From Terriglobia bacterium (lineage in GTDB: Bacteria; Acidobacteriota; Vicinamibacteria; Vicinamibacterales; CAVVIG01), in contig JAIQFX010000032.1 in NCBI GenBank assembly GCA_020073005.1, positions 1-49,101 on the forward strand: a stretch of DNA of 49,101 nt. The letters run 5' to 3'. This document shows positions 13,182 through 29,266 of this stretch, one piece after another. The position numbers were made by a program, and so were the translations under genes. Positions within the stretch are counted from its first letter, which is position 1. Every line of letters starts with the position of its first letter. A model generated the notes under the pieces. That model was given only the letters and a program-made list of their open reading frames with translations, was not told the DNA's origin and did not search any database.

Positions 13182-13769
13182 CTACGCCGAACGGGTTTTC
13201 AAGGTCGCGCGCGCCCGGAAGCGCGCGGTCAGTTCGGACGGAGACGGCTCGACCCGGCCGATTCCGGGCTGATTGCCGCGCTCGACGTCGACGACGAGCA
13301 TCGCCGGCGCGGGAGTGTGGAGAAACGAGCGCAGCGCATCCGTCAGCGCCTGTTCGTCGCGCACGCGCACGACCGAGCGGTAGCCGGCGGCGCGGGCGAC
13401 GGCGTCCAGCGGCACGCGATCGGAAATCGTCCGCTGATCGCCCGTCGATCCGTGCGCGGCGTTGTCGAAGACGACGTGGTAGAAGTTCGGCGGCGCCGCG
13501 GCCGCGACGCTGCCGAGCGCGCCCATGTTCATCAGCACGTTGCCGTCGCCGTCGAAGACGACGACCGTCCGCGACGGCTGGACGAGCGCGAGGCCGAGTC
13601 CGATCGAGGACGCGAGCCCCATCGATCCGATCATGTAGAAGCGCGACGGCGCGTCAGCGTGCGTGTACAGCTCGCGGCCGATCATGCCGTTGCAGACGAC
13701 GGTGAGGCAGTCCGCGCCAGTGACGTCGACGGCATCGGCGACGCGCGCGACGGCGAAGGCGCGCTTCAC
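13182..13769 (-). CDS. Phosphonopyruvate decarboxylase-like, ThDP-binding C-terminal subunit
   Basis: A 195-residue protein corresponding to the C-terminal, diphosphate-binding half of a thiamine-diphosphate decarboxylase. GSMGLASSIGLGLAL leads to the ThDP/Mg motif GDGNVLMNMGALG near residues 70-82, followed by an NAAHGSTGDQ segment. With the preceding gene it makes a split enzyme of about 360 residues in total, the size of one-chain phosphonopyruvate decarboxylases (Ppd, Fom2), which convert phosphonopyruvate to phosphonoacetaldehyde and make the PEP-mutase step irreversible. The split resembles archaeal sulfopyruvate decarboxylase (ComD/ComE), so sulfopyruvate is an alternative substrate. 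The start ATG overlaps the upstream stop by four bases. The upstream PEP-mutase-like gene and the AEP transaminase nearby favour the phosphonate role. Confidence 0.8.
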   Translation of the reverse strand: MKRAFAVARVADAVDVTGADCLTVVCNGMIGRELYTHADAPSRFYMIGSMGLASSIGLGLALVQPSRTVVVFDGDGNVLMNMGALGSVAAAAPPNFYHVVFDNAAHGSTGDQRTISDRVPLDAVARAAGYRSVVRVRDEQALTDALRSFLHTPAPAMLVVDVERGNQPGIGRVEPSPSELTARFRARATLKTRSA

Positions 13770-14263
13770 GATTGCAGCCTCCCCTTCCCGACGACGAGCG
13801 CGACGGGCCTGCGCGTCTCGCGCATGACACGGGTGAGCCGCTCGACGTTCGCGCCGAGCGTCGCCGGATCGAACACCGCGTACGGGATCTGCAGCAGCTG
13901 CAGAAACGGCTGCATCACGTCGCCCATGATGAGATGTTCGGGCGCGTCCTTCCCGCCTTCGCCGCGCCAGCTGACCGCGAGGAGCGCCGGGATGTCGTAG
14001 ATCTGATGCAGCGACACGAGCGCGTTCATGCTGACGCCGAGCCCGCTGTTCTGCATGAAGACGACGGGCTGCCGGCCGCCGAGGTAGGCGCCCGCCGCGA
14101 GGCCCAGCGCGGAATCTTCGCGCACCGCGCTGACGTAGCCGTAGCGCGGCTCGGCGTCGAGGATGCGCGTCACGCCCTCGAAGAGCGAGCAGGGAACGCC
14201 CGTGAAGAAGTTGTAGCCGTGCTGTTCGAGCAGGTCGAGGAAGTGGCGGGACGGACTAGCCAA
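13766..14263 (-). CDS. Phosphonopyruvate decarboxylase-like, N-terminal (PYR) subunit
   Basis: A 165-residue protein matching the pyrimidine-binding half of ThDP decarboxylases. It has FFTGVPCSLFEGVTRIL near the N-terminus, the activating Glu in VREDSALGLAAGAYLGG near residue 48, and QNSGLGVSMNALVSLHQIYDIP, a stretch very characteristic of the phosphonopyruvate/sulfopyruvate decarboxylase group. It works with the next gene as an alpha/beta pair. It overlaps the PepM-like fusion gene by eight bases upstream and the beta gene by four bases downstream, so the three are translated from one message. Substrate assignment rests on family and operon context. Confidence 0.8.
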   Translation of the reverse strand: MASPSRHFLDLLEQHGYNFFTGVPCSLFEGVTRILDAEPRYGYVSAVREDSALGLAAGAYLGGRQPVVFMQNSGLGVSMNALVSLHQIYDIPALLAVSWRGEGGKDAPEHLIMGDVMQPFLQLLQIPYAVFDPATLGANVERLTRVMRETRRPVALVVGKGRLQS

Positions 14264-15935
14264 CTTCTGTCCACGCCCGGCGATAGTCGTCGAACGTATC
14301 GACCTCGAGCCAGCCCTGGTGGATCCCGACCGATCCGACCGCGTGCCCGCGCCGGATGACCTCGTGCAGCAGATCGGTCAGCTTCGCCTTCCGCAGCGAC
14401 GGCGACTCGTGGACGGGCGCCGACTCGCCGCGCTCGCGCAGCTCGCGATAGACTTCGCCGAGGATCTGGCAGCCGTGCGCCGTGAGCTTCGCCATGCCGA
14501 TGAACTCGGCGGTCGCCTCGCCCGGGTCCAGCGACTGCCCGATCGCCGTGAGCCGCACGGGCTGATCGTCGGCGAGGAAGCGGTGGTGGCGCCGCGGCGT
14601 GGGCGTTTCGATCACGAGATCGGCCGCCGAGCCCTCGCGCGTCGCGCGCGTGTCGGGCCACGAGCGATCGCAGACGAGCGCGATGTCCTGGTCGCACTGC
14701 AGCAGGCGGTCGAGGATGTTGCGGTCGAACAGGATGTCGCCGTACATCACGATCACCGTGCCCGACAGCTCCGAGCCCGCGCGCAGCAGGCTCTCCAGCT
14801 CGCCGCTCTCCTCGAACGCGTCGTTGTCGTAATAGCGCACGTTCGGGATCGTGATCATTTCCTTCTTGTAGCCGCGCACGACGGCGATCGGGCGGACGCC
14901 GGCCTGCTGCAGCATGTCCACCTGGCGCTCGAGAATCGGCTTGCCTTTCACCTCGAGCATCGCCTTCGGACGATCCGAGACCAGCGGCATGAGCCGTCGA
15001 TCGAAGCCGGCCGCAAGAATGATGGCCTTGACGGTCTCGACGTCGGCCGGCAGGTACTCGCGCTCGTCGGCCTTCATCTGGGCGAGGTTCACGAGCCGGT
15101 AGACTTCAGTCAGCGGCACGATGCGATCTTCGACGTTCGACGCGCGACCGGTCTCGCGGATCGTCTTCAGGGACTCCTGCGCCGCGCGAATCGCCGCGCG
15201 CATGCCCTGATTCGCGAAGATCATCAGCTTCAGTCCGGCGCGCGCGAGCTCGTCGATGCTCGCGCCGTTGTAGGTCGTCGGCACGCACGCGAGCGGCGTC
15301 AGCCGATCCCATTCGGAGGCGAACTGCGCGACCTCGTCCATCGTGCCGTGCTTGGAATGGATCAACACGACGTCGGCGCCCGCGTCGGCGTACGCGCGGC
15401 CGCGGCGCAGCGCCTCTTCCATGCCCCAGCCGGCGATCAGCGCCTCGGTCCGCGCGACGATGACGAGCTCGCCGGCGGCGGCGTCGACGGCCGACGTGAT
15501 CTTCAGGACCTGCTCGTCGGTGTCGGTCAGCAGGCGCTTGACGCCGCCGTAGAAGCTGCAGCGCTTCGGAAAGACGTTGTCTTCGATGCAGATGCTGGCG
15601 ATGCCGGCGGCGGCGAACTGGCGCACCGTCCGGATCGCGTTGATCGAATTGCCGAAGCCCGTGTCGCAGTCGGCCATCACGGGAAGACTCACGGCGTCGT
15701 TCATGACCTGCGCGGCGTGCAGCGTCTCGGTCATCGTCAGGATGCTGGCATCCGGCACGGCGTAGCTCGCGCTGATTTCGAACCCGCTCGCCCAGACGGC
15801 GTCATAGCCGGCTTCCTCGACGATCCGCGCCGTGAGGCCGTCGTGCGCGCCTCCGAGCACGATCGGGCCGGGTTTCGCGAGCAGGCGCCGGAGCGCCGCG
15901 GCTTTCGACAGAAGTGGCGTGACGCGTTTGCTCAT
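14256..15935 (-). CDS. PEP mutase-like protein fused to a nucleotidyltransferase
   Basis: A 559-residue fusion. Residues 1 to about 300 are an isocitrate-lyase/PEP-mutase superfamily barrel: VWASGFEISASYAVPD, MADCDTGFGN, IVARTEALIAGWG, VLIHSKHG and NVEDRIVPL all follow PEP mutase. From about residue 305 a nucleotidyltransferase domain begins (AIILAAGFDRRL, DRPKAMLEVKGKP, VMYGDILFD) and ends with GWLEVDTFDDYRRA. PEP mutase makes phosphonopyruvate, the entry to nearly all natural phosphonates. The fused domain resembles LicC/PntC-type cytidylyltransferases, and Fom1 has a related fusion in the opposite order. The gating loop reads EDNVFPKRCS (118-127) instead of the diagnostic EDKxxxxxNS. It is first in the operon with the split decarboxylase and a receptor. 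The ATG at 15935 has TATCGT nine bases upstream. Confidence 0.8.
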   Translation of the reverse strand: MSKRVTPLLSKAAALRRLLAKPGPIVLGGAHDGLTARIVEEAGYDAVWASGFEISASYAVPDASILTMTETLHAAQVMNDAVSLPVMADCDTGFGNSINAIRTVRQFAAAGIASICIEDNVFPKRCSFYGGVKRLLTDTDEQVLKITSAVDAAAGELVIVARTEALIAGWGMEEALRRGRAYADAGADVVLIHSKHGTMDEVAQFASEWDRLTPLACVPTTYNGASIDELARAGLKLMIFANQGMRAAIRAAQESLKTIRETGRASNVEDRIVPLTEVYRLVNLAQMKADEREYLPADVETVKAIILAAGFDRRLMPLVSDRPKAMLEVKGKPILERQVDMLQQAGVRPIAVVRGYKKEMITIPNVRYYDNDAFEESGELESLLRAGSELSGTVIVMYGDILFDRNILDRLLQCDQDIALVCDRSWPDTRATREGSAADLVIETPTPRRHHRFLADDQPVRLTAIGQSLDPGEATAEFIGMAKLTAHGCQILGEVYRELRERGESAPVHESPSLRKAKLTDLLHEVIRRGHAVGSVGIHQGWLEVDTFDDYRRAWTEVG

Positions 15936-15950: not shown

Positions 15951-15986
15951 CCACAGTCATGCTTTGATAAAGTAGGTGTCACGTTG

Positions 15987-17096
15987 GTGATACAGCCCGT
16001 CCGCGGACGCCGCGCGTTCCGCGAATTCATCGATTACGCCTACGAGAGGAACGCCGCCGATCCGCACTGGATTCCTCCGCTGCGCCTCTCCGAGCACGAG
16101 CGGCTGAAGCCGGCCAAGAATCCGTTCTTCGCGCACGCCGACGTCGAGCTGTTCCTCGCGCGCCGCCCCGACGGCCGGATCGCCGGACGCATCGCCGCGA
16201 TCGACGATCGGCTCCACCAGGAGACGCATCGCGATCAGACGGCCATGTTCGGCTTCTTCGAAGCCGAGGACGCCGACGCCGCGCGCGCGCTGCTGAACAC
16301 GGTCGAGGCGTGGGCGGCCGCCCGCGGCCGGCGCCGCGTGCGCGGACCGATCAATCCGTCGCTCAACGAGAGCTGCGGCCTGCTGATCGACGGCTTCGAC
16401 ACCGACTCGATGCTGCTGATGCCGCACAACCCGCCGGAGTACGCGGCGTTCATCGAGTCGGCCGGCTACGGCAAGGTCAAGGATCTCTACGCGTGGCTGT
16501 ACGACATCGCGGCCGAGCCGCCCGAGGTCATCACGCGCCTCGCGGCGCGCCTGCGCGAGCGGCTGCAGCTCGTCGTGCGTCCGCTGAACCTGTCCGAGTT
16601 CACGAGCGAGATCGAACGTCTGCGCGAGATCTACTGCGGCGCGTGGGAGAACAACTGGGGCTTCGTGCCGCCGACGAAGGAGGAATTCCGGCGCCTGGCG
16701 ACGGAGCTCAAGCCGATCTTCGATACGCGGGCGGCGGTCGTCGCCGAGGCCGAGGGCCGCATGGTGGCGTGCGCGGTCGCGGTGCCGGACATCAATCAGG
16801 CGCTGAAGGGCACGAGCGGCCGGCTCTTCCCGAGCGCGCTGTTCCGTCTGCTGATGCGCCGTCGCTACATCGATCAGGCGCGGCTCCTGCTGCTGGGCGT
16901 CGCGCCCGAGTACCGCACGCGCGGCCTCTATCCGCTGCTCGTGTACGAGCTGCACCGCCAGACGCGCGGCGGGCCGTACAAGCGCGCGGAGTTCTCGTGG
17001 GTGCTCGAGGACAACCGCGACATCAACCAGCCGGCCGAGAACTCCGGCGCGCGCCGCTACAAGACCTACCGCATCTACGAAAAATCCCTGAGTTAA
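15987..17096 (+). CDS. Bacterial ceramide synthase-like GNAT protein (bCerS/YghO type)
   Basis: A 369-residue protein matching the GNAT-fold family of Caulobacter bacterial ceramide synthase and E. coli YghO. It has an N-terminal DPHWIPPLRLSEHERLKPAK, then KNPFFAHADVELFLARR, GRIAGRIAAIDDR, FGFFEAEDA, RGPINPSLNESCGLL, AWENNWGFVPPT, LLLLGVAPEYRTRGLYPLLV and a YKTYRIYEKSL C-terminus. The family N-acylates a long-chain base with an acyl-CoA/ACP. Here it would acylate the product of the Spt-like or CerR-like enzyme encoded at 23571-25742. The start is GTG at 15987 with a TAGGTG-type ribosome-binding site; TTG at 15984 is possible. It is divergent from the PepM-like operon with 51 bases between. 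The stop codon lies inside the left arm of the palindromic element that follows. Confidence 0.82.
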   Translation: MIQPVRGRRAFREFIDYAYERNAADPHWIPPLRLSEHERLKPAKNPFFAHADVELFLARRPDGRIAGRIAAIDDRLHQETHRDQTAMFGFFEAEDADAARALLNTVEAWAAARGRRRVRGPINPSLNESCGLLIDGFDTDSMLLMPHNPPEYAAFIESAGYGKVKDLYAWLYDIAAEPPEVITRLAARLRERLQLVVRPLNLSEFTSEIERLREIYCGAWENNWGFVPPTKEEFRRLATELKPIFDTRAAVVAEAEGRMVACAVAVPDINQALKGTSGRLFPSALFRLLMRRRYIDQARLLLLGVAPEYRTRGLYPLLVYELHRQTRGGPYKRAEFSWVLEDNRDINQPAENSGARRYKTYRIYEKSLS

Positions 17097-17441: not shown

Positions 17442-19901
17442 CTATCTTTCGAACCGGAACTGCAGGCGCACGCCGCGGTTGTCCGAGTTGTAGAACGTGC
17501 CGTACGACGGCGAGTTCGTGTTGGCCTGCACGTCCGCCGGCAGAAACGCCCCGAGGATGTTGGTGACGCGGATGCCGACCCACGGTTGGTACCGCAGCAC
17601 TTTGATCCGCCGCTCGAGGCCGAGTTCGAGGCGCGCGGCGTTCGGGAAGCGCAGCGAGTTTCGCGGCCCGACGAAATCCAGCATCTCGTTGACGGCCGAG
17701 TACGGAATGCCCGTCCGCCAGTCGAACACGCCGAGGAAGAGCCAGCGCGGCGCGGGCATCAGGCGGCCGCGCACGAACAGCCGGTGCGGCACGTCCGCGT
17801 TCAGCGGCGCGTACGCGTTCGCGCCGACGACCGGCGTCAGCACCGTGTCGAAGAAATTCGTCAGCGCGTTCAGGTCGCCCTGCGCCTTCGACCGCACGTA
17901 CGACGCGTCGACGTCGACCGATGATCCGCGCGTGAAGTGCACGCCGACCTCGGCGTCGCGGTAGCTGGACGCGCCGGCGCTGGACAACGTCAGCGCCGCG
18001 CCGGCCGGCGTCACCGACGGCGTCACGATCAGCTCCTGCCGCCCTTCGCGCTGGAGAAAGCCGGTGCGGAACGCCCATTGCGCATTCAACCGGTGCTCGT
18101 AGGTCACGTCCCAGGTCCGGCTCCGCGGCGTCTCGAGGCCCGGCGCCGTGAGACGCGCGACGCGCGCGGCGGGACCGAGGGGCGTCACGCCGTCGGCGGC
18201 AAAGCGCGTGTCCGTCTCGAGCTCGAACGTCCCGAACGCGCCGGCGACGGCCGGCGTGCGTTCGTAGAAGAGTCCCCAGCCTCCGCGCAGCACGGCGCTG
18301 CCCGACTCGTTGAGGAGCACGGCCGTTCCGAGGCGCGGCGACAGGTTGATGCGATCGAGAACGCCGTCACGATCGAGGCGGCCGCCGAACTCGACGTACC
18401 AGCGCGGATGCAGTTGCAGGCGATCCTGCGCGAAGAGCGCCGCCTCCAGGCTGCCGACGGCCTGACTCGTCGCGGCCGCGAAATCCAGGCGCCGCGCGGT
18501 CGTGCCGTCGGCGCGCTCGATCACGACGGATCGACTGTCGCTGGTCCCGTCGTATTGCGTGTGGATCAGATCGACGCCGGCCTTGAACAGGTGCAGGCCG
18601 ACCGGGCCGTCGCGATCCGTCGTCACGACGCTGACGAGCTGATACGACGTCGAGTTGCGGTGCTGCCGGTTGAAGAAGTTGCCCAGCGTGGTGTCCGGCT
18701 GCAGTTCCATCGGCGCGGTTCCCTGCGGGACCACGTCGGTGCGCGACTGGAAGAACTGCAGCGTCGTCTCGCTGACCGTCTTGGCGGTCCACAACGCGCG
18801 CTCGGTGATCGACGCCTGCTTGCCGTAGATGTGAAAGTCGACCGACGCGTCGGGCGGAATGAACGTGCCGAGCGTCGCGAACGTCGACCGGCTCGGAAAC
18901 AGCCCGACCGTCGCGCCGAGGCTGTGACTCGGCGACACGTTCGCGTCGAGGCGCGTGAACGAGCTCATCGTCGTCGACACGCGCTCCTCGTCCGGGGGCC
19001 GGCTCGGCACCTCGCCCGTGCTGTAGCGGAACTGTCCCGTCTGCTCGAGGAACACCCGGTCTTTGACCAACGGTCCGCCCGTGGCGAACCGCGGGCCGAA
19101 CGCATCGATGTGCGTGAAGGTGAACGGCTGGTCGCGCCGGTTGCGGAACGTCGGACCGAAACGGTTGATCCGGAATATCCATTGATCCTTGGCGCGGCGC
19201 GTCTGAATCACGACGAGGCCCGAGGCGAAGCGGCCGTACTCGACGGCGTACGGATTCGGCAGCACCGTCACCGAGTCGATCGCATCGTCGGGCAGCGAGA
19301 CATTCGCGATGGCCGACGCCGGATCGACGAGCGTCGCGGCGCCCAGCTGCACGCCCGCCTGGTTCGGCCGCCCGCCCTTGATGCTGATGCTGCCGTCCGG
19401 CAGCGTGATCGCGGTCGACAGCATGCGCACGGCGCCCTGAAAGCCGGTGCCCGGCACGAACTGATCGAGCTCGCGGCTGGCGATCGCTTCGACCGGCGCC
19501 AGCGTGTCGCCGCCGGACACGGCCGTCGTCGTTCCCACGACGTCGATCGTGTCGGACAGCGTGCCGATCGGCAGATCGATCGTGACGTTCGCGGGATCGC
19601 GATCGGTCACGGCGGCGGACTCCAGCATCGTCTCGAAGCCCTGGAACACCGCCATCACGCGGTACGTGCCGGTCACCAGGCCGCCGACGTGAAAGCGCCC
19701 GTCGCCGTCGCTGACCACGGTCGCGACAATCCGGCCGGTCGCGTCGATGACGATCACGCTGACGCCGCCGAGCGGCGTGGTGTGCTGCGTCGAGACCGCG
19801 CCGTCGATGGCGCCAATCGGCACTTGCGCAGTCGCGGGGCCTGGCCACGCGAGCAGCGCCGCGCCGATCACGAATGGCAGATGCCAGCGGACGCGACTCA
19901 T
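17442..19901 (-). CDS. TonB-dependent receptor, Oar-like, in AEP operon (copy 2)
   Basis: An 819-residue outer-membrane protein. The signal peptide (MSRVRWHLPFVIGAALLAWPG, ending near TAQ) is followed by a beta-sandwich domain (GAIDGAVSTQHT, FHVGGLVTGTYRVMAV), a plug-like region (SISIKGGRPNQAGVQLG, PNPYAVEYGRFASGLVVIQT) and a barrel ending in RLQFRFER. The ATG at 19901 is chosen because it overlaps the stop of the nucleotidyltransferase gene by four bases (ATGA) and gives a clean signal peptide; a longer reading adds 27 basic residues from the upstream gene. It is collinear along its whole length with the receptor at 10663-13146, including barrel motifs such as RDRLFLEQTGQYRYST versus KDRVFLEQTGQFRYST. 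Transcription ends towards the palindromic element. The ligand is unknown. Confidence 0.85.
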   Translation of the reverse strand: MSRVRWHLPFVIGAALLAWPGPATAQVPIGAIDGAVSTQHTTPLGGVSVIVIDATGRIVATVVSDGDGRFHVGGLVTGTYRVMAVFQGFETMLESAAVTDRDPANVTIDLPIGTLSDTIDVVGTTTAVSGGDTLAPVEAIASRELDQFVPGTGFQGAVRMLSTAITLPDGSISIKGGRPNQAGVQLGAATLVDPASAIANVSLPDDAIDSVTVLPNPYAVEYGRFASGLVVIQTRRAKDQWIFRINRFGPTFRNRRDQPFTFTHIDAFGPRFATGGPLVKDRVFLEQTGQFRYSTGEVPSRPPDEERVSTTMSSFTRLDANVSPSHSLGATVGLFPSRSTFATLGTFIPPDASVDFHIYGKQASITERALWTAKTVSETTLQFFQSRTDVVPQGTAPMELQPDTTLGNFFNRQHRNSTSYQLVSVVTTDRDGPVGLHLFKAGVDLIHTQYDGTSDSRSVVIERADGTTARRLDFAAATSQAVGSLEAALFAQDRLQLHPRWYVEFGGRLDRDGVLDRINLSPRLGTAVLLNESGSAVLRGGWGLFYERTPAVAGAFGTFELETDTRFAADGVTPLGPAARVARLTAPGLETPRSRTWDVTYEHRLNAQWAFRTGFLQREGRQELIVTPSVTPAGAALTLSSAGASSYRDAEVGVHFTRGSSVDVDASYVRSKAQGDLNALTNFFDTVLTPVVGANAYAPLNADVPHRLFVRGRLMPAPRWLFLGVFDWRTGIPYSAVNEMLDFVGPRNSLRFPNAARLELGLERRIKVLRYQPWVGIRVTNILGAFLPADVQANTNSPSYGTFYNSDNRGVRLQFRFER

Positions 19902-20659
19902 GCGTTCCGCAACTCCTGCAGTCGGGGCCAGACGTGCCGGGTGACGCGGGCGAACTGCCGCTCGTCGTCGATTTCGCCCCACAGCAAATCCGGCACGAGC
20001 ACGGCGGCAATCGGGCGCTCGGCGGCCACGTTGACCAGCGCGCCGGCCTCATAGTCCATGCGCTCGTGGCCGAATCGCACGACGAACTCGGCGAAGGCAC
20101 GGCGCATCGCTCGCGCGCCTTCCGCGGACAGGCGCGTGATGCCCACGAACTCGCCGGCGATGCCGGGCAGTTCGGCGGCGCGCTTGCTCATCGTCTGCAG
20201 ACGTCCGTTCGGCGCGCACACCCAGACTTCGTCGCCCGCTCCGGTCGGCCCGGAGAGGAGCGTCGCGTCGGACGCCGGCGACGCAAGGATCGCCGTCAAG
20301 GCTCGCGTTTCATACACGATGTCGCTCTCCAGCACGAGGACGCCGGCGGCATCGCCGGGATCCGCGGCGTCGAGCGCCCGCGCCAGCGACGCCATGCTGC
20401 CGGACGTGGCAAATCGTTCGTTGAGGATCGTCCGTACTCCCGGCCGCTGAGCCGCGAAGAGCTCGTACTGCTCGGCGCAATAGCCAACGACGATGATCAC
20501 GTCGTCGATGCCGGCCTCGTGGAGGACACGCACCGATCGGCCGGCGAGCGTCTCGCCGTCGATCTCGATGAGCCCTTTCGGTCTGGCGTCGACCATCGAC
20601 CTCAGACGCGTGCCCATGCCGGCCGCGAGAATGATCGCACGGCAGTCACGCGCGGCCAA
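19898..20659 (-). CDS. LicC/PntC-like nucleotidyltransferase (candidate CTP:AEP cytidylyltransferase)
   Basis: A 253-residue nucleotidyltransferase: AIILAAGMGTRL at residues 8-19, RPKGLIEIDG from residue 27, VIIVVGY, then NERFATSGSMASL, LVLESDIVYE and a C-terminal WGEIDDERQFARV. The layout is that of LicC (CTP:phosphocholine) and PntC (CTP:2-aminoethylphosphonate) cytidylyltransferases. It overlaps the AEP transaminase gene by 14 bases, which matches the known PntC-AEPT partnership and makes CMP-AEP the likely product. The start is TTG at 20659, supported by a GGGAG ribosome-binding site, with no ATG or GTG in a suitable place. The next gene, a receptor, overlaps by four bases. A sugar-1-phosphate substrate cannot be excluded from sequence. 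Confidence 0.75.
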   Translation of the reverse strand: MAARDCRAIILAAGMGTRLRSMVDARPKGLIEIDGETLAGRSVRVLHEAGIDDVIIVVGYCAEQYELFAAQRPGVRTILNERFATSGSMASLARALDAADPGDAAGVLVLESDIVYETRALTAILASPASDATLLSGPTGAGDEVWVCAPNGRLQTMSKRAAELPGIAGEFVGITRLSAEGARAMRRAFAEFVVRFGHERMDYEAGALVNVAAERPIAAVLVPDLLWGEIDDERQFARVTRHVWPRLQELRNA

Positions 20660-21785: not shown

Positions 21786-22577
21786 TCACACCCCGGCCGC
21801 GGCGACGAGGCCCCAGATCACGAGGGCCAGCGCGGCGCCCGCGACGACGTCGACGATGTAGTGATAGCGGCCGACGACGCAGGCCAGGCTGATGCTGGCG
21901 GCCAGGACGAACAGGATCGCGCCGGCCCACGGCATCGCCACGCCGACGGCCATCGCGACCGCGAGCGAGCCGGCGACGTGACCGCTCGGAAACGTGTTCG
22001 CGCGGATCGTGAACGTGCTGACGAGGCCGGAGGCGATCTGATGGAACGCACGGGCGCGCTGGCTCGACGGACGCTCGAGCGCCCACGGCGGGCGCGTCTG
22101 AATCAGGCTCAGCGGCGCGAACGCGCCGAATTCCGCGGCGACGACCATCGTCCAGTAGTGATCCGCCATCGCGCGGCGGCCGGTCCAGACGAGCGCGGCG
22201 AAGCCGGCCGGGATGAGGAGAAAGCAGCCGAGGTAGATGACCTCCAGGTACGCCAGCACCGGGCGCGGCCAGTGCGCGAACCGCGTCGTCGGATCGCCGA
22301 GCAGCCGGTGGTCCCACGCCATCAGCCAGCGTTCGAACGCCGGCGCCGAGCCGACGAAAAATCGTCCCGACACGTAATAGCCGACGAGAATCAGGATTGC
22401 GGGCGCCCAGTCACGGACCAGCGGGCTCGCGTCGCGCGGCAGCATCCAGATCGCGGCGATCATGACGATGCCGATGATCGTGACCTGGACGCGGCGCGCC
22501 ATGGGCAGCGGGCGGATCCACGCCGCCACCGCCATCACGCCGAAGTATCCCGCCGCGAGCCCCTCCGAAAAACGCAC
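21786..22577 (-). CDS. PAP2/AUR1-like membrane phosphotransferase (candidate ceramide head-group transferase)
   Basis: A 263-residue multi-span membrane protein with the three PAP2-superfamily motifs: a C1-like QTRPPWALERP, C2 FPSGHVAGS near residue 193 and C3 GRYHYIVDVVAG near residue 236. The PAP2 superfamily includes lipid phosphatases and the AUR1-type inositol-phosphoryl-ceramide synthases, which use the same His-Asp chemistry to move a phospho-head-group to ceramide. It is the first gene of an operon with AEP transaminase and a cytidylyltransferase, and it is divergent from the sphingolipid desaturase gene. A head-group transferase making a phosphono-ceramide is therefore a natural inference, with plain phosphatase as the alternative. 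The start is GTG at 22577 with a GAGAGG ribosome-binding site; a longer reading would overlap the divergent gene. Confidence 0.7.
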   Translation of the reverse strand: MRFSEGLAAGYFGVMAVAAWIRPLPMARRVQVTIIGIVMIAAIWMLPRDASPLVRDWAPAILILVGYYVSGRFFVGSAPAFERWLMAWDHRLLGDPTTRFAHWPRPVLAYLEVIYLGCFLLIPAGFAALVWTGRRAMADHYWTMVVAAEFGAFAPLSLIQTRPPWALERPSSQRARAFHQIASGLVSTFTIRANTFPSGHVAGSLAVAMAVGVAMPWAGAILFVLAASISLACVVGRYHYIVDVVAGAALALVIWGLVAAAGV

Positions 22578-22598
22578 GGTATCGACCTCTCGTGATGC

Positions 22599-22605
22599 TA
22601 ACGTA
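22599..22605. promoter_or_regulatory. Candidate overlapping divergent -10 elements
   Basis: The seven bases TAACGTA give TAACGT on the plus strand, seven bases before GTG 22612, and TACGTT on the minus strand, 22 bases before GTG 22577, where a GAGAGG ribosome-binding site also lies. The whole gap between the divergent starts is 34 bases. The motif is weak, and the call rests on repetition of the arrangement seen at 7995-8001. Confidence 0.25.
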
Positions 22606-22611
22606 TGTCGC

Positions 22612-23574
22612 GTGTCCGCCGCCTTCATGCAGGTTGACTACGCCGAGCCGCACCTCGCGCGCGGGCGTCGGATTCTCGCGGCGCATCCGGAGCTGCGCGC
22701 GCTCGCGGGACCGCGGGCGCTGAGCGCGGTGTGGATCGTCGTCCTCGTGTCGGCGCAGATCGCGATGGCCGTCGCGCTCGGGCCTCAATCGTGGCACATC
22801 TGGCTGCCGGTGGCCTACATCATCGGCGCGACGATCGATCACGCGCTGTGGGTCCTCATTCACGAGTGCGCGCACAACCTGATCTTCGGCGCGCGGCTCG
22901 GCAATCGCGCGGCGGCGCTCACCGCGAATCTGCCGCTCGTGTTTCCGGCGGCGATGTCGTTCTGCAAGTACCACCTGCTCCACCATCGCCACCTGGGCGA
23001 GATCGAGCTCGATGCCGATCTCGCCGGCCCGGTCGAAGCGCGCATGGTCGGTCGATCGTCGATCCTCAAGACGGTGTGGCTGGCCGCGTTCGTGCTCGTC
23101 GTCGGCACGCTGCGGCCCCGCCGCCTGACGCGCGTGCCCTTCGTCGACCGCTGGACGACGATCAACCTGCTGGTGCAGGCGGCCGCCGTCGTCGCGCTCG
23201 TGTGGTGGTTCGGATGGGCGCCGCTGAAGTACCTCGTCGCCTCGTCCATTCTCGCGATCGGCTTTCATCCGCTCGGCGCGCGCTGGATTCAGGAGCACTA
23301 CGTGTTCGCGCCCGGCCAGGAGACGTACTCGTACTACGGCCCGCTCAACCGCGTGTCGTTCAACGTCGGCTACCACAACGAGCATCACGATCTCGTGACC
23401 GTACCCTGGTCCAACCTGCCGCGGGTCCGCGCGGGCGCGCCGGAGTTCTACGACACGCTGCGGTCGCACGGCTCGTGGACGGGGCTCCTCGTCGCGTTCC
23501 TCCGCGATCGCGACATGACGCTCTTCAGCCGCATCATCCGTCCGCTGCGGGGCGAACCCACGCGCGAGCCGTGA
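22612..23574 (+). CDS. Sphingolipid delta-4 desaturase-like fatty acid desaturase (DEGS type)
   Basis: A 320-residue membrane di-iron desaturase with the three His boxes of the DEGS family: HECAH at residues 84-88, HHRH at 124-127 and YHNEHHD at 254-260. Beyond the boxes it keeps DEGS-specific runs: an EHYVFAPGQETYSYYGPLN stretch, FNVGYHNEHHD and EFYDTLRSHGSW. DEGS1 introduces the 4,5-trans double bond of dihydroceramide to give ceramide. The start is GTG at 22612: it keeps the Phe-x-x-Val/Tyr and 'EPH...RR.IL..HPE' segment that aligns with the DEGS N-terminus, whereas ATG 22627 would cut into it. The CerR-like gene follows with a four-base overlap, and the divergent PAP2/AEP operon starts 34 bases away. 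Sphingosine-type bases are rare in bacteria, so this gene is notable. Confidence 0.85.
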   Translation: MSAAFMQVDYAEPHLARGRRILAAHPELRALAGPRALSAVWIVVLVSAQIAMAVALGPQSWHIWLPVAYIIGATIDHALWVLIHECAHNLIFGARLGNRAAALTANLPLVFPAAMSFCKYHLLHHRHLGEIELDADLAGPVEARMVGRSSILKTVWLAAFVLVVGTLRPRRLTRVPFVDRWTTINLLVQAAAVVALVWWFGWAPLKYLVASSILAIGFHPLGARWIQEHYVFAPGQETYSYYGPLNRVSFNVGYHNEHHDLVTVPWSNLPRVRAGAPEFYDTLRSHGSWTGLLVAFLRDRDMTLFSRIIRPLRGEPTREP

Positions 23575-24533
23575 TCCGCAGGGTCGCGATCACGGGAGCG
23601 ACCGGCTTCATCGGCCGCCATCTCACCGCCCGCCTCGCCTCCCGCGGCGTCAGCGTCCACGCCGTTCAGCGGCCCGAGTCCAGGCAGCCGGCGCCGGAAG
23701 GCGCGACGGTCGTGCGCGCCGCGCTCGACGCCGGGTCGCTCGCGCCGGTGTTCGCGCAGGTCGACGCGGTCGTGCATCTGGCGGGCGTCGTCTCGTCGAC
23801 GCGCGCGCGCGATTTTACCGACGTCAACGTCGCCGGCACGCAGGCGGTCGCGCGCGCCGCGCGCGCCGCGGACGTGCCCGTGATCCACGTGTCGAGCCTC
23901 GCCGCCGCCGGCCCCGCGGCGCCGTCGGCGCCGCGCGGCGAAGCGGACGCGTCGCGGCCCGTGACGCCGTACGGCCGCAGCAAGCTCGAAGGCGAGCGCG
24001 TGATCGCGGCCGAGCAGGGTCTCCGCTGGACGATTCTGCGGCCCGGCGTCGTGTACGGACCCGGCGATCGCGCCATGCTGCCGCTGTTCGCGCTCGCCAG
24101 ACGCGGCGTCCTGCCGCTCGTCGGGCGCGCGACGGCCGCGTTCACATTCGTGTACGTCGACGATCTCGTTCGCGCGATCGTCGCCGCGCTGGATCTGCCC
24201 GCGCGGCAGGACACGCTGTTCGTCGGCCACCCCGAGCCCGTCGCCACGCGCGGGCTGCTCGAGGACATTCGGTCGGTCGTCGGCGGCGGCGCCATCATCG
24301 TCCCGATCCCGATGCTTCTCACGCGCGCCGCGGCGCTCGCCGGGGAGCTCGCCGGCGCGCTTGCTGGACGCCCGATGACGATCAATCGCTCGCGCTACAC
24401 GGAGCTGGCGTCGGAGGGATTCGTGTGCCGCGTCGATCGGCTGCGCGAACAGCTCGGCATCGTCGCTGAAGTTGATCTTCGGACAGGATTGACGCGAACC
24501 GCGGAGTGGTATCGAAAAGAGGGCTGGATCTGA
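23571..24533 (+). CDS. NAD-dependent epimerase/reductase, candidate ceramide reductase CerR
   Basis: A 320-residue extended short-chain dehydrogenase. The Rossmann motif TGATGFIGRH lies at residues 8-17, an HLAGVV segment near 65, VIHVSSLAA near 105 and the catalytic YGRSK (Tyr and Lys near 133 and 137). The family is shared with UDP-sugar epimerases. In Caulobacter a protein of this type, CerR, reduces the 3-keto group during bacterial ceramide synthesis. Its GTG start overlaps the desaturase stop by four bases and it converges on the Spt-like gene, so the sphingolipid role is the best inference. Sequence alone cannot separate CerR from a nucleotide-sugar epimerase. Confidence 0.72.
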   Translation: MIRRVAITGATGFIGRHLTARLASRGVSVHAVQRPESRQPAPEGATVVRAALDAGSLAPVFAQVDAVVHLAGVVSSTRARDFTDVNVAGTQAVARAARAADVPVIHVSSLAAAGPAAPSAPRGEADASRPVTPYGRSKLEGERVIAAEQGLRWTILRPGVVYGPGDRAMLPLFALARRGVLPLVGRATAAFTFVYVDDLVRAIVAALDLPARQDTLFVGHPEPVATRGLLEDIRSVVGGGAIIVPIPMLLTRAAALAGELAGALAGRPMTINRSRYTELASEGFVCRVDRLREQLGIVAEVDLRTGLTRTAEWYRKEGWI

Positions 24534-24536: not shown

Positions 24537-25742
24537 CTAACTCACGGCTACTCGCGTGACTCCGAGTTCAGCCCCAACCCGTCCCAGCACGTCCAGCGCG
24601 CGGGCGATGTGCTCGGGCGTGTGCGCGGCCGAGCAGCTCGCGCGCAGGACGCACTCATCGACCGGGCACCCGGGCGGCACGATCAGATTCACGTAGAGAC
24701 CCTCGGCGAGCAGGCGCTGCCACAACGCGATCGTGCGCGCTTCGTCGCCGGTCATGATCGGCACGATCGGCGATTCGGTCTCGCCAATCACGTAGCCGAC
24801 CTCGCGCAGCCCCTGACGGAGCCGGCGCACGTTCGCCCACAGCTGCTCGCGCAGCTCCGGCGTCCGGCGCACGACGTTGACGGCGGCGCTCACGCTCGCG
24901 ATGTTCGACGGCGATCCCGACGCCGTGAAGACGTAGGCGCGCGCCAGGAAATGCAGCGCGCGCAGCTCGGGATGATCCGACACGCACACGCCGCCGATTC
25001 CGGCCAGCGACTTCGAGAACGTCCCCACCAGGAAGTCGACGTGCTCGAGCACGCCCTGATCTTCCGCGCATCCAAGGCCGGACGGACCGTACGTGCCGAG
25101 CGAATGCGCTTCGTCGACGAGCAGGTACGCGTCGTGCGCGCGGCAGACGTCGACGATGTCGCGCAGCGGCGCGACGTCGCCGCGAATCGAGTAGAGCCCC
25201 TCGACGACGACGAGCTTGTTGCGGCGCTGGCGGTCCAGCCGCTCGAGCTTCTTGCGGAGGCTCTCGGCGGAATTGTGACGGAAGCCGATCACCTGCGCCG
25301 CCGTCTGGCGCGTCGCGTCGTAGATGCTCGCGTGGCTGTCGCTGTCGATCAGGATGACGTCGCCCTGGCCGCACAGTCCGCCGATGAGCGACAGGTTCGC
25401 CTGGTAGCCGGTGCTGAAGATGATCGCGTGGCGCTTGCCGAACCATTCGGCGAACTGCCGCTCGAGATCCTCGTGAATCGCCAGCGTGCCGTTGGCCGTG
25501 CGCGATCCGGTCGTGCCGGTGCCGTACTCGCCCACCGCGCGGCGCGCCGCCTCGATGACCTCGGGATGCAGCGTCAGGCCGAGATAGTTGTTGGACCCGA
25601 ACATGAGCGTGGGCCGGCCCTGGACGACGACTTCGCAGGGCCCGATCACGCGATCGATCACCGTCAGGCCGGGCATGGCCGATCGGTCCGCGAACTTCGC
25701 GCACCGCGCTTCGACCGCCCGCAGTTTGTTGAGGAGATCCAT
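24537..25742 (-). CDS. spt: Alpha-oxoamine synthase, likely serine palmitoyltransferase
   Basis: A 401-residue PLP enzyme of the alpha-oxoamine synthase family. It has LMFGSNNYLGL near residue 47, TGTTGSRTANGTLAIHEDLE, FSTGYQANLSL, DSDSHASIYDA, VEGLYSIRGD, LLVDEAHSLGTYG and the PLP lysine in GTFSKSLAGIGG near residue 242. The family condenses an amino acid with an acyl thioester (Spt, Kbl, BioF, HemA). The immediate partners are a fatty acyl-AMP ligase and an acyl carrier protein on the same message, which is the Spt arrangement known from Caulobacter and Sphingomonas-type clusters. CerR-like, bCerS-like and desaturase genes are nearby. Spt is therefore preferred; a cysteate-using enzyme for sulfonolipids is the main alternative. 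The ATG start lies 27 bases after the ligase gene. Confidence 0.8.
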   Translation of the reverse strand: MDLLNKLRAVEARCAKFADRSAMPGLTVIDRVIGPCEVVVQGRPTLMFGSNNYLGLTLHPEVIEAARRAVGEYGTGTTGSRTANGTLAIHEDLERQFAEWFGKRHAIIFSTGYQANLSLIGGLCGQGDVILIDSDSHASIYDATRQTAAQVIGFRHNSAESLRKKLERLDRQRRNKLVVVEGLYSIRGDVAPLRDIVDVCRAHDAYLLVDEAHSLGTYGPSGLGCAEDQGVLEHVDFLVGTFSKSLAGIGGVCVSDHPELRALHFLARAYVFTASGSPSNIASVSAAVNVVRRTPELREQLWANVRRLRQGLREVGYVIGETESPIVPIMTGDEARTIALWQRLLAEGLYVNLIVPPGCPVDECVLRASCSAAHTPEHIARALDVLGRVGAELGVTRVAVS

Positions 25743-25769: not shown

Positions 25770-27440
25770 CTACGACTTCACCGCTTCCGCCACCAGCTCG
25801 CCGCGCTCGTATCGCGCCTTGGTCGCCGCGCGCTGCACTTTCCCGCTGGTCGTCCGGCTCACGGTCCCGCTCGGGACCAGCGCCACGGCGTCCACATACA
25901 AGCCGAACAAATCGCCAATCCGGCGCCGAATCGTGTCGGTCAGCACGTCGGTCGCGACCGTGCCGTTCGGTTCGGCGACGATGACGACGCGATCGGGACG
26001 GCCATGATTGGTGGCGCCGAACGCCACCACGCGGCCCCGGCGAACGCCCGCGAGGCCGTCGACCGCCCATTCGAGATCCTGCGGATGGTACTTGCGGCCG
26101 TGAACGATGATGACGTCCTTGGCGCGCCCGCAGACAAATAGTTCGCTGTCCGAAAGATACCCGAGATCGCCCGTGTGCAGCCACCCGTCCCGGATGGTCT
26201 GCGCCGTCAGGGCATCCCGCTTATAGTAGCCCAGCATAACCGAAGGACCCGCGAGCAGGATTTCTCCCACGTGCCGCTCCGGCAGGGGCCGTCCGTCCTC
26301 CCCGACGATGCGAATCTGGTGCTCGGGCAGGGGTTTCCCGCAGCTGACGAGCCCCACCGAGAGGCCTTCCCCCTTGTGCGGGATCGCGATCCGGCGCTCG
26401 GTCAGCGCGTCGGCCGAGACTTCTTCGGTGCGCGGCGCGCGCCCGCGGGCCGGAAACGCCGCGGCCAGGACGTGCTCGGCGAGCCCGTAACTCGGGAGGT
26501 AACTCGTCTTCCTGAATCCGACTGGGGCGAATTTCTGCGCAAACGCCGCGAGCGTCGGCGGATGGATCGGCTCGGCGCCGCAGCCCGCCACGCGCCACGA
26601 CGCGAGATCGAGCCCGGCCATGTCGCGGTCCTTCACGCGGCGGACGCACAGGTCGTACGCGAAATTCGGGCCGAAGCTGATCGTGCCGCGGTGCCGCGTG
26701 ATCGCCGACAGCCATTCGGACGGCCGCTTCACGAAGGCCTGCGGCGTGAGGAGCACGCACGGGCAGCGCCCGTAGAGCGCGCCGAACGCCATCCCGACCA
26801 GCCCCATGTCGTGGTTGAGCGGCAGCCAGCTGACCGCGACGTCGTCGGGCGTCGTGCCGACGCCGTGGTGGTTGAACGCGTCGACGTTGGCCGAGACGTT
26901 CGCGTGCGTGAGCGCGACGCCCTTGGGCGAGGACGTCGATCCGGACGTGAACTGCACGAAGGCGATGTCGTCGATCTTCGGCATCACGCCGGGCTCGTCG
27001 CACGGCCCGTGCAGGCTGGCGTGCGCCAGCACCTGCGTCAGCTCCGGACATTGCGCGCGCACGCGATCGAATTCGGGGACCAGCGCGTTGGTCGTGATCA
27101 CCGTGCGCGCGCCGGACGATCGCAGGATCGACGTCGTGAGCTCGAGGTACCGCGGCAGGTCGCTCGTCGTCGCCGGCGGATAGAGCGACGCGGGGATGAC
27201 GCCCGCCATCGACGCGCCGAACAGCGTGGACAGGAATTCTTCGGCGTCGGCCAGCACGATGGCGACCAGGTCGCCGCGCCGCAGGCCCGCTGCACGCAGC
27301 GCGGCCGCGACCTGAATCGCGCGGCAGCGCAGATCGGCGTACGAGACGATTCTTTCCGCGCCGGCAGACACGAAGACAAAGCCCGCGCGCGTGCGCGCGG
27401 CCTGCTCCAGTGCCTCGGGCATGGTCCGCGGTGTGGGCAT
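25770..27440 (-). CDS. Fatty acyl-AMP ligase / acyl-ACP synthetase
   Basis: A 556-residue adenylate-forming enzyme. VSYADLRCRAIQVAAALR lies at the N-terminus, the P-loop-like FTSGSTSSPKGVALTHAN near residue 160, SWLPLNHDMGLVG (typical of fatty acyl-AMP ligases) near 205, SYGLAEHVLAAAF near 320, GWLHTGDLGYL near 420 and a C-terminal TTSGKVQR with the conserved Lys. It would activate a fatty acid as acyl-AMP and load it on the ACP encoded just upstream, feeding Spt or the ceramide synthase. The ATG overlaps the ACP stop by one base (TGATG). The ACP-ligase-Spt order is the same logic as the AasR/AcpR/Spt set of Caulobacter. Chain length cannot be read from sequence. Confidence 0.85.
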   Translation of the reverse strand: MPTPRTMPEALEQAARTRAGFVFVSAGAERIVSYADLRCRAIQVAAALRAAGLRRGDLVAIVLADAEEFLSTLFGASMAGVIPASLYPPATTSDLPRYLELTTSILRSSGARTVITTNALVPEFDRVRAQCPELTQVLAHASLHGPCDEPGVMPKIDDIAFVQFTSGSTSSPKGVALTHANVSANVDAFNHHGVGTTPDDVAVSWLPLNHDMGLVGMAFGALYGRCPCVLLTPQAFVKRPSEWLSAITRHRGTISFGPNFAYDLCVRRVKDRDMAGLDLASWRVAGCGAEPIHPPTLAAFAQKFAPVGFRKTSYLPSYGLAEHVLAAAFPARGRAPRTEEVSADALTERRIAIPHKGEGLSVGLVSCGKPLPEHQIRIVGEDGRPLPERHVGEILLAGPSVMLGYYKRDALTAQTIRDGWLHTGDLGYLSDSELFVCGRAKDVIIVHGRKYHPQDLEWAVDGLAGVRRGRVVAFGATNHGRPDRVVIVAEPNGTVATDVLTDTIRRRIGDLFGLYVDAVALVPSGTVSRTTSGKVQRAATKARYERGELVAEAVKS

Positions 27441-27703
27441 CAGGCCTTTGGCCGCTCCCCGACGAGCTCGGCGACCTGCGCCACGACTTGCCCCACGGTG
27501 CGCGTGGCGGGCACGTCGTTGAGCGGGATGGAAATGTCGAAGCGGTCCTCGAGTTCGGCGATCACTTCGAGCACCTGCAACGAATCGAATCCCAGATCGG
27601 CGATCAGGTCGCTGGCGAGCGAGGGCTTGATCGGGCGACGACTCACGCTGTTGAGGACGTCGATCACGCCTTCTTCGATGGCGGCGGAGGCTGGCTGCGG
27701 CAT
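27440..27703 (-). CDS. Acyl carrier protein (with the Spt/ligase operon)
   Basis: An 87-residue acyl carrier protein with the phosphopantetheine serine in LGFDSLQ near residue 41 and the usual acidic helix VLEVIAELEDRF. ATG 27703 is preferred because it gives family length; ATG 27730 or a still earlier start would add 9-15 hydrophobic residues. It heads the minus-strand operon ACP-ligase-Spt with one-base overlap to the ligase. It would carry the acyl chain condensed with serine. A second ACP gene starts divergently at 27781. Confidence 0.82.
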   Translation of the reverse strand: MPQPASAAIEEGVIDVLNSVSRRPIKPSLASDLIADLGFDSLQVLEVIAELEDRFDISIPLNDVPATRTVGQVVAQVAELVGERPKA

Positions 27704-27748: not shown

Positions 27749-27754
27749 TAACGG

Positions 27755-27760: not shown

Positions 27761-27780
27761 GCGCTCGGCGGGAGGTTCAC

Positions 27781-28035
27781 GTGGAGCAGGACGTCGAGCG
27801 ACAGGTCATCGGTCTGATTGCGCGCAAGAAGAAGCTGGACCCCGCGCGGATCACGCCGGCCAGTACGTTCGAGGAACTCGGGCTCGATTCGCTCGACGCC
27901 GCGGATCTGATCTTCACGATCGAGGATACGTTCAAGATTGTCGTCCCCGACGAAGCGGCGCTGTCGATGAGGTCCGTGGGGCAGGTCGTCGCCGGCATCG
28001 AGAAGCTCGTGGCCGACGGCGCCGGGGCGCCCTGA
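27781..28035 (+). CDS. Acyl carrier protein (with the ketoacyl synthase)
   Basis: An 84-residue acyl carrier protein with the phosphopantetheine serine (Ser37) in LGLDSLDAADL and a typical LIFTIEDTFKI second helix. The start is GTG with a strong GGGAGG site. The ketoacyl synthase gene begins one base after its stop codon. It is divergent from the other ACP gene with 77 bases between the starts, so this lipid module has two different ACPs, probably one for chain building and one for delivery. The assignment of roles is inference. Confidence 0.88.
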   Translation: MEQDVERQVIGLIARKKKLDPARITPASTFEELGLDSLDAADLIFTIEDTFKIVVPDEAALSMRSVGQVVAGIEKLVADGAGAP

Positions 28036-28036
28036 C

Positions 28037-29266
28037 GTGCGGCGTGTCGCCGTCACCGGACTCGGGGCCGTGTCCGCGCTCGGCGTCGGCGTCGCCCCGT
28101 TCTGGGAGCGCGTGGTCGCGGGCGCGAGCGGCGTCCGCCGCATTTCCAACTTCGACGCCACCGGATTTCTCGCGCAGGTCGCGGCCGAAGTCCCCGGCTA
28201 CGATCCCGCGCGACATTTCTCCGACGCCGAGCAGGACATCCTCGATCGCTTCGCGCAGTTCGCGCTGATCGCCGCCGGCGAAGCGTGCGCGCAGGCCGGC
28301 CTCACGCTGGACGACGCCGAGCGCGATCGCGCCGGCGTCACGATCGGCAGCGGCATGGGCGGCGTCGTCACGCAGGACCAACGCTACCAGAAGCTGTACG
28401 GTGAAGGCGTGTGGCGCGTGCACCCGTTCACCATCCCGCGCATCATGAACAACGCCGCCACCTCGCAGATCAGCATGCGCCACGGCCTGCGCGGACCGTC
28501 GCTGTCGATCGGGACGGCATGCGCGGCGTCGGCGCACGCGATCGGCGAAGCCGCCGAGATGATCCGCGCCGGGCGCGCGGACGTGATGATCGCCGGCGGC
28601 GCCGAAGCGCCGATCGCGCCGGGCGTCGTCCGCGGCTGGGAGTCCATGCGCGTGCTGGCGCCCGCGCCGGCCGGCGATCCGTCGCGCGCGTGCCGTCCGT
28701 TCAGCCGCGATCGCCTCGGGATGGTGCTCGGCGAAGGCGCGGGGATCGTCGTGCTCGAGGCCTGGGACCGCGCGACCGCGCGAGGCACGACGATTCTGGC
28801 GGAGATCGCCGGCTACGCCGCGACGGCCGACGCGGGACACATCACGCAGCCTGGCGTGCACTCGCCCGCGCGCGCCATCACGCTGGCGCTCGCGCAGGCG
28901 GGCATGGCGCCGGCCGACATCGACTACGTCAACGCGCACGGCACGGCGACGCGGCTCAACGACGCGACCGAGACGACGGTCATCAAGCAGGCGTTCGGCG
29001 CCGACGCCGCGCGCCTCGCGATCAGCTCGACCAAGGCCGTCCACGGTCATGCCATGGGCGCGTCCGCCGCGCTCGAGTGCATCGCGACGATCCTGGCGGT
29101 GCGGCACGGCGTCGCGCCGCCGACGGCCAACTACACCGAGCCCGATCCGGAATGCGATCTCGACTACGTGCCGAACACCGCGCGGCCCATGAAGATTCGC
29201 GCGGCCATCTCGAATTCGTTCGCGTTCGGCGGGCTGAACGCCGTCCTGGCGATAAAGAAAGTCTGA
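28037..29266 (+). CDS. Beta-ketoacyl-ACP synthase II-like (FabF family)
   Basis: A 409-residue condensing enzyme. VAVTGLGAVSALG lies at the N-terminus, the active-site Cys in GTACAASAHAIGEA near residue 163 and the catalytic histidines in NAHGTAT (near 302) and AVHGHAMGAS (near 336). The C-terminus is NSFAFGGLNAVLAI. All catalytic residues are present, so it should elongate acyl-ACP chains by decarboxylative condensation. It is coupled to a dedicated ACP gene and sits at the edge of the sphingolipid gene set. It may therefore tailor chain length for that lipid rather than serve general fatty acid synthesis. The GTG start follows the ACP stop. The TGA stop is the start of a heptamer repeat. 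Confidence 0.88.
   Translation: MRRVAVTGLGAVSALGVGVAPFWERVVAGASGVRRISNFDATGFLAQVAAEVPGYDPARHFSDAEQDILDRFAQFALIAAGEACAQAGLTLDDAERDRAGVTIGSGMGGVVTQDQRYQKLYGEGVWRVHPFTIPRIMNNAATSQISMRHGLRGPSLSIGTACAASAHAIGEAAEMIRAGRADVMIAGGAEAPIAPGVVRGWESMRVLAPAPAGDPSRACRPFSRDRLGMVLGEGAGIVVLEAWDRATARGTTILAEIAGYAATADAGHITQPGVHSPARAITLALAQAGMAPADIDYVNAHGTATRLNDATETTVIKQAFGADAARLAISSTKAVHGHAMGASAALECIATILAVRHGVAPPTANYTEPDPECDLDYVPNTARPMKIRAAISNSFAFGGLNAVLAIKKV

Follow-up and report, generated by a model that had tools for sequence, protein, structure and literature searches.

Gene content of the locus

The window, meaning the whole stretch of 49,101 nucleotides analysed here, is an entire contig (JAIQFX010000032.1) of a 5.86-Mb genome in 179 contigs from a Terriglobia bacterium placed in the Vicinamibacteria (assembly GCA_020073005.1). 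Between positions 13182 and 29266 it carries genes predicted to make and activate 2-aminoethylphosphonate (AEP) among genes of a bacterial ceramide pathway, and it was from this arrangement that an earlier note, made from the sequence alone, proposed a ceramide with a phosphonate head group as the product; all of the phosphonate and ceramide genes it named were located in the interval. Genes were called from Pfam and NCBIfam profile matches, PDB sequence matches and synteny with relatives. A scan of the window with Rfam at gathering thresholds and a tRNA scan gave no matches.

The phosphonate genes lie on the minus strand in two operon-like groups whose members overlap by a few bases. The first comprises ppdC (13182..13769; PF02775, 4e-17) and ppdN (13766..14263; PF02776, 4e-7), encoding the C-terminal, thiamine pyrophosphate-binding and the N-terminal subunits of a phosphonopyruvate decarboxylase (Ppd), and pepM (14256..15935), encoding a phosphoenolpyruvate (PEP) mutase-like domain (about residues 10-295; PF13714, 6e-57) fused to a MobA-like nucleoside triphosphate (NTP) transferase domain (about residues 301-559; PF12804, 4e-15). 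Both Ppd halves score under the cut-off of 312.5 bits set for the one-chain model TIGR03297, with 137.6 bits over model positions 2-156 of 360 for ppdN and 175.1 bits over positions 173-358 for ppdC. The second group pairs a PhnW/AepZ-type AEP transaminase (20646..21755; TIGR03301, 339.6 bits against a cut-off of 360.8, covering positions 1-351 of 355) with a stand-alone NTP transferase (19898..20659, open reading frame as listed) that we assign to PntC, the cytidine triphosphate:AEP cytidylyltransferase.

The PntC assignment, which narrows the PntC/LicC-like label of the earlier note, is the firmest functional call of the locus on sequence evidence. The protein aligns with 6pd1 over residues 7-249 (1.9e-33, compared with 1.3e-15 for LicC 1jyk), and its E111 and E204 align with Glu104 and Glu196 of 6pd1, where LicC has Asp. 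The structure 6pd1 is a PntC-transaminase protein that we take to be Tde1415, which fits its two-domain name and length. Both glutamates contact the AEP amine in PntC, according to PMC6697681. Formation of cytidine monophosphate-AEP (CMP-AEP) is likely, given the end-to-end match and the retention of both contact residues. The NTP transferase domain fused to PepM belongs to the same superfamily, and its match to LicC is limited to residues 3-106 of the submitted stretch.

Among these genes is the Caulobacter-type ceramide set: spt (24537..25742, minus strand), a serine palmitoyltransferase that passes its NCBIfam cut-off (NF047599, 520.5 bits against 500) and matches solved enzymes (2x8u, 1.6e-110); a fatty acyl-AMP ligase or acyl-acyl carrier protein (ACP) synthetase (25770..27440, minus strand; PF00501, 2e-64; NF006624, 483.8 bits against a cut-off of 600); a first ACP (27440..27703, minus strand, start uncertain; PF00550, 8e-11); cerR (23571..24533, plus strand), encoding a NAD(P) reductase of the epimerase/dehydratase family (PF01370, 2.5e-40) and adjoining bCerS and spt in relatives; and a bCerS-like acyltransferase gene (15987..17096, plus strand, start uncertain). 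Called from its translation and marginal by Pfam (GNAT, 20.3 bits against 20.7), with no match in NCBIfam, the bCerS assignment rests on synteny: in family relatives the gene has cerR and spt as its neighbours, and a homologue of 49% identity on a Rubrobacter plasmid lies between an aminotransferase-type pyridoxal phosphate enzyme and a NAD(P) oxidoreductase. An open reading frame on the opposite strand (15957-17132) has no family match and was rejected as the gene at this place, and a search of one Caulobacteraceae genome with the bCerS query gave no match and was uninformative.

Further genes extend this set. A DEGS-like dihydroceramide desaturase (22627..23574, plus strand) scores above cut-off for both PF00487 (1e-24) and the sphingolipid delta-4 N-terminal domain PF08557 (Lipid_DES, 24.2 bits against 23), and the histidines of its boxes HECAH, HLLHH and HNEHH are conserved in four aligned sequences. 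A second ACP (27781..28035; PF00550, 5e-13) and a FabF-type ketoacyl-ACP synthase (KAS; 28037..29266; TIGR03150, 494.3 bits against 493.75) share the plus strand with bCerS, the desaturase and cerR, opposite to the phosphonate genes. On the minus strand, 21786..22628 encodes a PAP2 membrane protein (PF14378, PAP2_3, 8e-14) resembling AUR1 and inositol phosphorylceramide (IPC) synthase, a candidate head-group transferase. The desaturase, PAP2 and bCerS proteins had no PDB sequence match at the limits used, and the desaturase had none in the plasmid collection.

Linkage across the family

The PepM-NTP transferase fusion is encoded by six of the 27 family genomes analysed, including that of the window, and its carriers span four genera (E <= 1e-100). 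In all six, pepM shares a contig with spt, cerR, bCerS and the PAP2 gene in differing gene orders, which bears out the expectation of conserved linkage between the phosphonate and ceramide genes. In the window's genus bCerS stands between the pepM and phnW blocks, and the two gene sets are interleaved; elsewhere the order is PAP2-pepM-ppdN-ppdC-phnW-NTP (G016) or NTP-ppdC-ppdN-pepM-PAP2-bCerS (G019), and in G011 pepM lies at a contig end some 10 kb from the PAP2 gene with Ppd pairs on other contigs. The locus includes phnW in four carriers. As descent from one ancestor means that the six are not independent, retention of linkage through reshuffled orders is a stronger argument than the count of six out of six; the pairing is not chance. 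An assembly chimera is ruled out by the linkage in five other genomes.

Spt was found in 22 of the 27 genomes at E <= 1e-100. In 14 of them its identity reaches at least 80%, and these comprise all six carriers and eight relatives without PepM. Four of the latter (G012, G022, G007, G017) keep the acp, acyl ligase, spt, cerR, bCerS and PAP2 genes together with a TonB-dependent receptor gene (TonB1), and have no phosphonate genes there; G014 has no PAP2 match within its 20 kb, and contig ends truncate the stretches of G015, G025 and G026. Because these four retain the ceramide set and PAP2, the phosphonate module is separable from the rest: it either joined a sphingolipid locus that already existed or dropped out of one. 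We count the PAP2 and desaturase genes as part of the sphingolipid set, with no specific tie to phosphonates, since both occur without PepM, the former in four of the eight relatives and the latter in one (G007, between PAP2 and bCerS). A role for PAP2 as an enzyme dedicated to phosphonates is ruled out on the same count.

The desaturase, second ACP and KAS genes travel together, all three being present in the window, G001 and G007 and none matched in G012, G014, G017, G019 or G022; the stretches of G002, G015, G016, G025 and G026 are cut short for this comparison. A role of the KAS pair in making the desaturated sphingoid base is possible. Several of the six carriers encode further Ppd-like pairs, and in the window's genome additional pairs resembling Ppd or sulfopyruvate decarboxylase lie at G000:C46:56-1068 and G000:C122:15328-16312.

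Proposed pathway and head-group transfer

On the evidence of these genes, PEP would be converted to phosphonopyruvate by the PepM of the locus, a cysteine-bearing variant of PEP mutase, and homology predicts decarboxylation by the two-subunit Ppd, transamination to AEP and, with strong homology and the contact residues kept, activation to CMP-AEP by PntC. In parallel, Spt would join serine to acyl groups that the acyl-AMP ligase has activated and that ACP carries. Acylation of the product would fall to bCerS, its reduction to CerR and, in some lineages, its desaturation to the DEGS-like enzyme. The AUR1-like PAP2 protein would then transfer AEP to the ceramide. In bacterial inner membranes, PAP2 enzymes have their active sites on the periplasmic side, so that a flipped AEP-glycerolipid would be a likelier donor than CMP-AEP itself. 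We put at roughly 58% the probability that the locus makes a phosphonosphingolipid by way of the variant mutase, most likely ceramide 2-aminoethylphosphonate. The gene linkage is real and conserved, and the pathway is a sound hypothesis with two putative steps, the reaction of the variant mutase and the transfer of AEP.

In the window's family PAP2 occupies the position where a head-group transferase would be expected. Its low-confidence structural model (pLDDT 63) aligned best, over nearly the whole protein, with IPC synthase with ceramide 9vj4 at Z 13.8 over 244 residues and with Aur1 9ivc at Z 13.6 over 248, values that helical proteins can reach without kinship. The window protein belongs to the same PAP2_3 family as these two proteins and the sphingomyelin-synthase-related 8ijq, and differs from AUR1/IPC synthase-type proteins in being only 14% identical.

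Several observations weigh against this pathway. The same model aligned with the phosphatase LpxE at Z 13.2 over 160 residues, a shorter core and effectively a tie, and a Foldseek search with it found no match at E <= 0.001. No transferase is confined to those family members that carry the phosphonate genes, PAP2 being present in PepM-less relatives as well. PepM is without the motif EDKx5NS. At 26 distant loci with the variant pepM there was no Spt or bCerS match, many of the flanks being short, and on the pepM contigs of the six family carriers there was no CDP-alcohol phosphotransferase (PF01066) match. The desaturase is present in three of the six PepM-bearing loci, all of one genus; the co-occurrence of PepM-like, bCerS-like and DEGS-like genes that the earlier note proposed as a check holds on the same contig in every carrier for the first two and in half of them for the third, and the 4,5-desaturated base it proposed is supported by the gene in the window and is not general. 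Finally, genes for GINT1_N and DUF1647 proteins are each present in five of the six PepM-bearing loci. In favour of the proposed phosphonate head group on ceramide stand the linkage, the PntC type, the ceramide set with its DEGS-like desaturase, the AUR1-like PAP2, which accompanies bCerS in four PepM-less relatives too, the Ppd genes and PF01066 neighbours of the variant pepM lineage, and the precedents of AEP-ceramide in Trypanosoma cruzi and of a phosphonate head group in Bacteriovorax stolpii.

The main rival acceptor is a surface glycan or glycolipid. The adjacent genes would then make a glycan that receives AEP from CMP-AEP, following the pattern of known phosphonoglycan clusters, and the ceramide genes would be mere neighbours. 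The window encodes a Stealth protein (144-1169), a LicD-like protein (2991-3722; PF04991, 6.7e-10, with only 32 residues matched), a GINT1_N protein beside a DUF1647 protein (6596-9995), an RXYLT1-like neighbour of the latter, and an ABC exporter. GINT1_N and DUF1647 genes are each found in all but one of the PepM-bearing loci and are matched weakly in one of the eight PepM-less loci (G017, at 38% and 30%, five of the eight hardly reaching the region), and PMC6697681 links PntC clusters with LicD-like genes. Among the six family loci LicD and Stealth were found in the window only; of the other five, just G001 extends well beyond GINT1_N, with G011 being covered as far as pepM. The interleaving of phosphonate and ceramide genes in the window's genus and the lipid-type CDP-alcohol phosphotransferases at distant variant pepM loci, described below, also speak against a glycan, and we regard it as an unlikely acceptor, albeit the foremost of the alternatives. 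Two side observations concern these proteins: the GINT1_N domain is named after plant glucosamine inositolphosphorylceramide transferase, and the second half of the DUF1647 protein resembles its RXYLT1-like neighbour by eye.

We found no description of a gene cluster for a bacterial phosphonosphingolipid in the open-access literature searched, subscription papers lying mostly outside its scope, in agreement with the earlier note, which knew of none joining these steps. The locus resembles the phosphonyl tailoring (Pnt) clusters of PMC6697681 in its mutase-NTP transferase fusion, AEP production genes and stand-alone PntC with the glutamate pair, and differs from them in the EDN..CS motif, the two-gene Ppd, the ceramide linkage and the restriction of LicD to the window among the six family loci. 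With the five structural genes of the Caulobacter set (PMC11324152) it has in common clustered Spt, ACP, acyl-ACP synthetase, CerR-like and bCerS-like genes, to which it adds the DEGS-like desaturase, the second ACP, KAS, the AUR1-like PAP2 and the phosphonate module. Bacteriovorax stolpii sphingophosphonolipids carry a phosphonate head group linked to C1 of the base, in a passage that names no gene cluster (PMC6148460), and Trypanosoma cruzi, a eukaryote, makes AEP-ceramide by a PEP mutase route to AEP and then ceramide, in passages that name no final transferase (PMC5648825). The AEP head group gives a neutral loss of 125 Da, against 141 Da for phosphoethanolamine, according to PMC5648825. 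Bacterial phosphonosphingolipids having previously been known chemically, the locus supplies a testable gene set.

A cysteine-bearing PepM lineage

The earlier note read the fusion as PEP-mutase-like. PEP mutases are indeed its best PDB matches (5unc, 7e-79; 1m1b, 1.6e-63), and what the note overlooked is that the defining motif EDKx5NS is replaced by EDNVFPKRCS, with Cys at the position of the catalytic Asn. Relative to 1m1b, which we take to be the mussel PEP mutase, the window PepM has N at K116 and C at N122 and keeps K120 and R159. The six orthologues read EDNVFPKRCSFY in five cases and EDNMYPKRCSFY in one, with EDN, PK and RCSFY invariant, as are K124 and R162. The domain scores 264.3 bits against TIGR02320, under the cut-off of 319.55, and matches the hydrolase 2dua at 2e-60 and methylisocitrate lyase at 3e-35; by PDB search and alignment, with the positions of K120 and R159 retained, it is nearest to PEP mutase within the superfamily. 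We infer formation of a carbon-phosphorus bond by this enzyme from genome context, since it lacks the family-defining motif. That motif was required for acceptance as PepM in a 2025 actinomycete survey (PMC12723261) and by Rice 2019 (PMC6697681), the latter reporting it in 883 of 905 fused PF13714 proteins and discarding the other 22.

An alignment of 84 PepM domains (the window, 73 of 76 PepM loci and, from relatives, nine lyase-like loci and one more PepM-like locus) separated 32 EDN..CS rows (the window, L048-L073, L078, L080, L081, L085 and L121) from 21 with NS, 21 with TS or SS (hydrolase-like) and ten with CGH (lyases). Nineteen of the NS rows have EDK. Mixed forms also occur, EDN..NS in L091 and EDQ..NS in L043 (G011:C838), the latter a second, high-scoring copy (277.5 bits) alongside the EDN..CS copy of the same genome. 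The EDN..CS rows are labelled as eight phyla, some labels of metagenome-assembled genomes looking wrong (e.g. L057, 'Klebsiella pneumoniae'). The closest PepM from a named record, at 92% identity, is that of an Acidobacteria groundwater assembly, and another carrier is labelled gp6, consistent with Acidobacteria subdivision 6, which we take to be the class Vicinamibacteria. NS and TS rows form a single clade with 100/100 support and all EDN..CS rows fall outside it; with lyases as outgroup, a poor root that is distant and includes one very long row, the EDN..CS rows are a grade, forming a single clade in 0% of 200 bootstrap trees.

None of the 32 variant genomes has a PepM above the curated cut-off, the best scores being 240 to 299 bits, and five others besides G011 have second PepM matches, scoring 110 to 138 bits. 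Of the 32, 29 encode Ppd (missing in L070, L072 and L073). Besides the further Ppd-like pairs of several family carriers, the Ppd model also matches in two of 14 control genomes, both methanogens; this co-occurrence is support, not proof, that the variant is a PEP mutase. Because Ppd is so widespread among these genomes and an above-cut-off PepM is found in none, the variant probably serves its carriers as their PEP mutase. The domain could instead act as a lyase or hydrolase, Cys taking the catalytic position, and make no carbon-phosphorus bond from PEP, a reading compatible with the PKRC that EDNVFPKRCS, devoid of Asn122, has in common with the lyase rows, with the grade seen under lyase rooting and with the score below the curated cut-off. 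The EDN..CS form nevertheless does not have the CGH of the lyases, its top PDB match is a PEP mutase (5unc, by far ahead of methylisocitrate lyase), and its fusion to an NTP transferase, together with the Ppd and PepM counts, leaves nearly all carriers with no other evident source of phosphonopyruvate; we hold a lyase or hydrolase to be improbable.

PF01066 proteins point to lipids as the phosphonate acceptors of the EDN..CS lineage. One recurrent neighbour family, in eight of the 26 distant loci, is of the CDP-alcohol phosphotransferase type (two representatives match PF01066 and a third weakly matches related NCBIfam models), and nine of 19 distant genomes (G100, G105, G107, G108, G112, G115, G116, G118 and G125; seven of the 26 were left out of this count) have a PF01066 match no more than 10 kb from the variant pepM, where random placement predicts 0.49 (P ~2e-10), an expectation drawn from gene number and genome size and not from canonical pepM loci. 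All 20 genomes with NS-motif PepM have PF01066 matches genome-wide, distance to pepM forming no part of that count, and by similarity, in the fetched stretches only and with EDN-biased queries, L106 alone of the NS loci has such a neighbour. Candidate sphingolipid genes at distant loci were rejected: Spt matches in 19 of the 26 genomes at E <= 1e-60 are 33-49% identical and inseparable from related synthases, and a CerR-like match in L078 (32%) and a desaturase-like open reading frame beside pepM in L080 (23%) look like generic family members.

These neighbours favour a further alternative for the family itself, in which AEP is attached to a glycerolipid by a CDP-alcohol phosphotransferase encoded elsewhere and the ceramide bears another head group, and all six carriers do encode four to six PF01066 matches elsewhere in the genome. 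With five to eight in the eight PepM-less relatives, an extra copy accompanying PepM is not seen by number, copies only being counted, and a glycerolipid acceptor leaves unexplained both the gene linkage and the PAP2 protein resembling ceramide-modifying synthases; we consider it as improbable as the lyase. Six same-family sphingolipid loci (L155, L156, L159, L160, L161 and L162), with Spt 53-63% identical and no PAP2 match, have CDP-alcohol phosphotransferase-like matches nearby, perhaps reflecting different head-group chemistry.

Beyond the ceramide aminoethylphosphonate proposed for the window, we suggest tentatively, as something rather less probable than that product, that a second, cysteine-type PEP mutase lineage (EDNx[F/Y]PK[R/K/E]CS[F/L]Y), to which the EDKx5NS marker is blind, supplies the phosphonates of membrane lipids across the eight labelled phyla, and that in Acidobacteriota it is tied into a full ceramide pathway, in some cases with a eukaryote-like delta-4 desaturase, yielding ceramide aminoethylphosphonate. 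Our searches of the open-access literature likewise showed no EDN..CS PepM. If the lineage forms carbon-phosphorus bonds, motif filters overlook producers in Planctomycetota, Omnitrophota, Nitrospirota, Acidobacteriota and others, and an Asn regarded as a family hallmark would be replaceable by Cys, which bears on the kinship of PEP mutases and Cys-bearing lyases; the enzyme lineage may be a larger finding than the lipid locus.

Other genes of the window include two for TonB-dependent receptors with carboxypeptidase-regulatory domains, at 10663-13146 and, inside the locus, at 17442..19905 (minus strand, start uncertain; PF13620, 5e-11, and PF00593). Relatives that lack pepM retain the first of these two at their sphingolipid locus. 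A 752-residue open reading frame at 43059-45317 combines a class-A beta-lactamase-like domain and an M20 peptidase domain in one chain.

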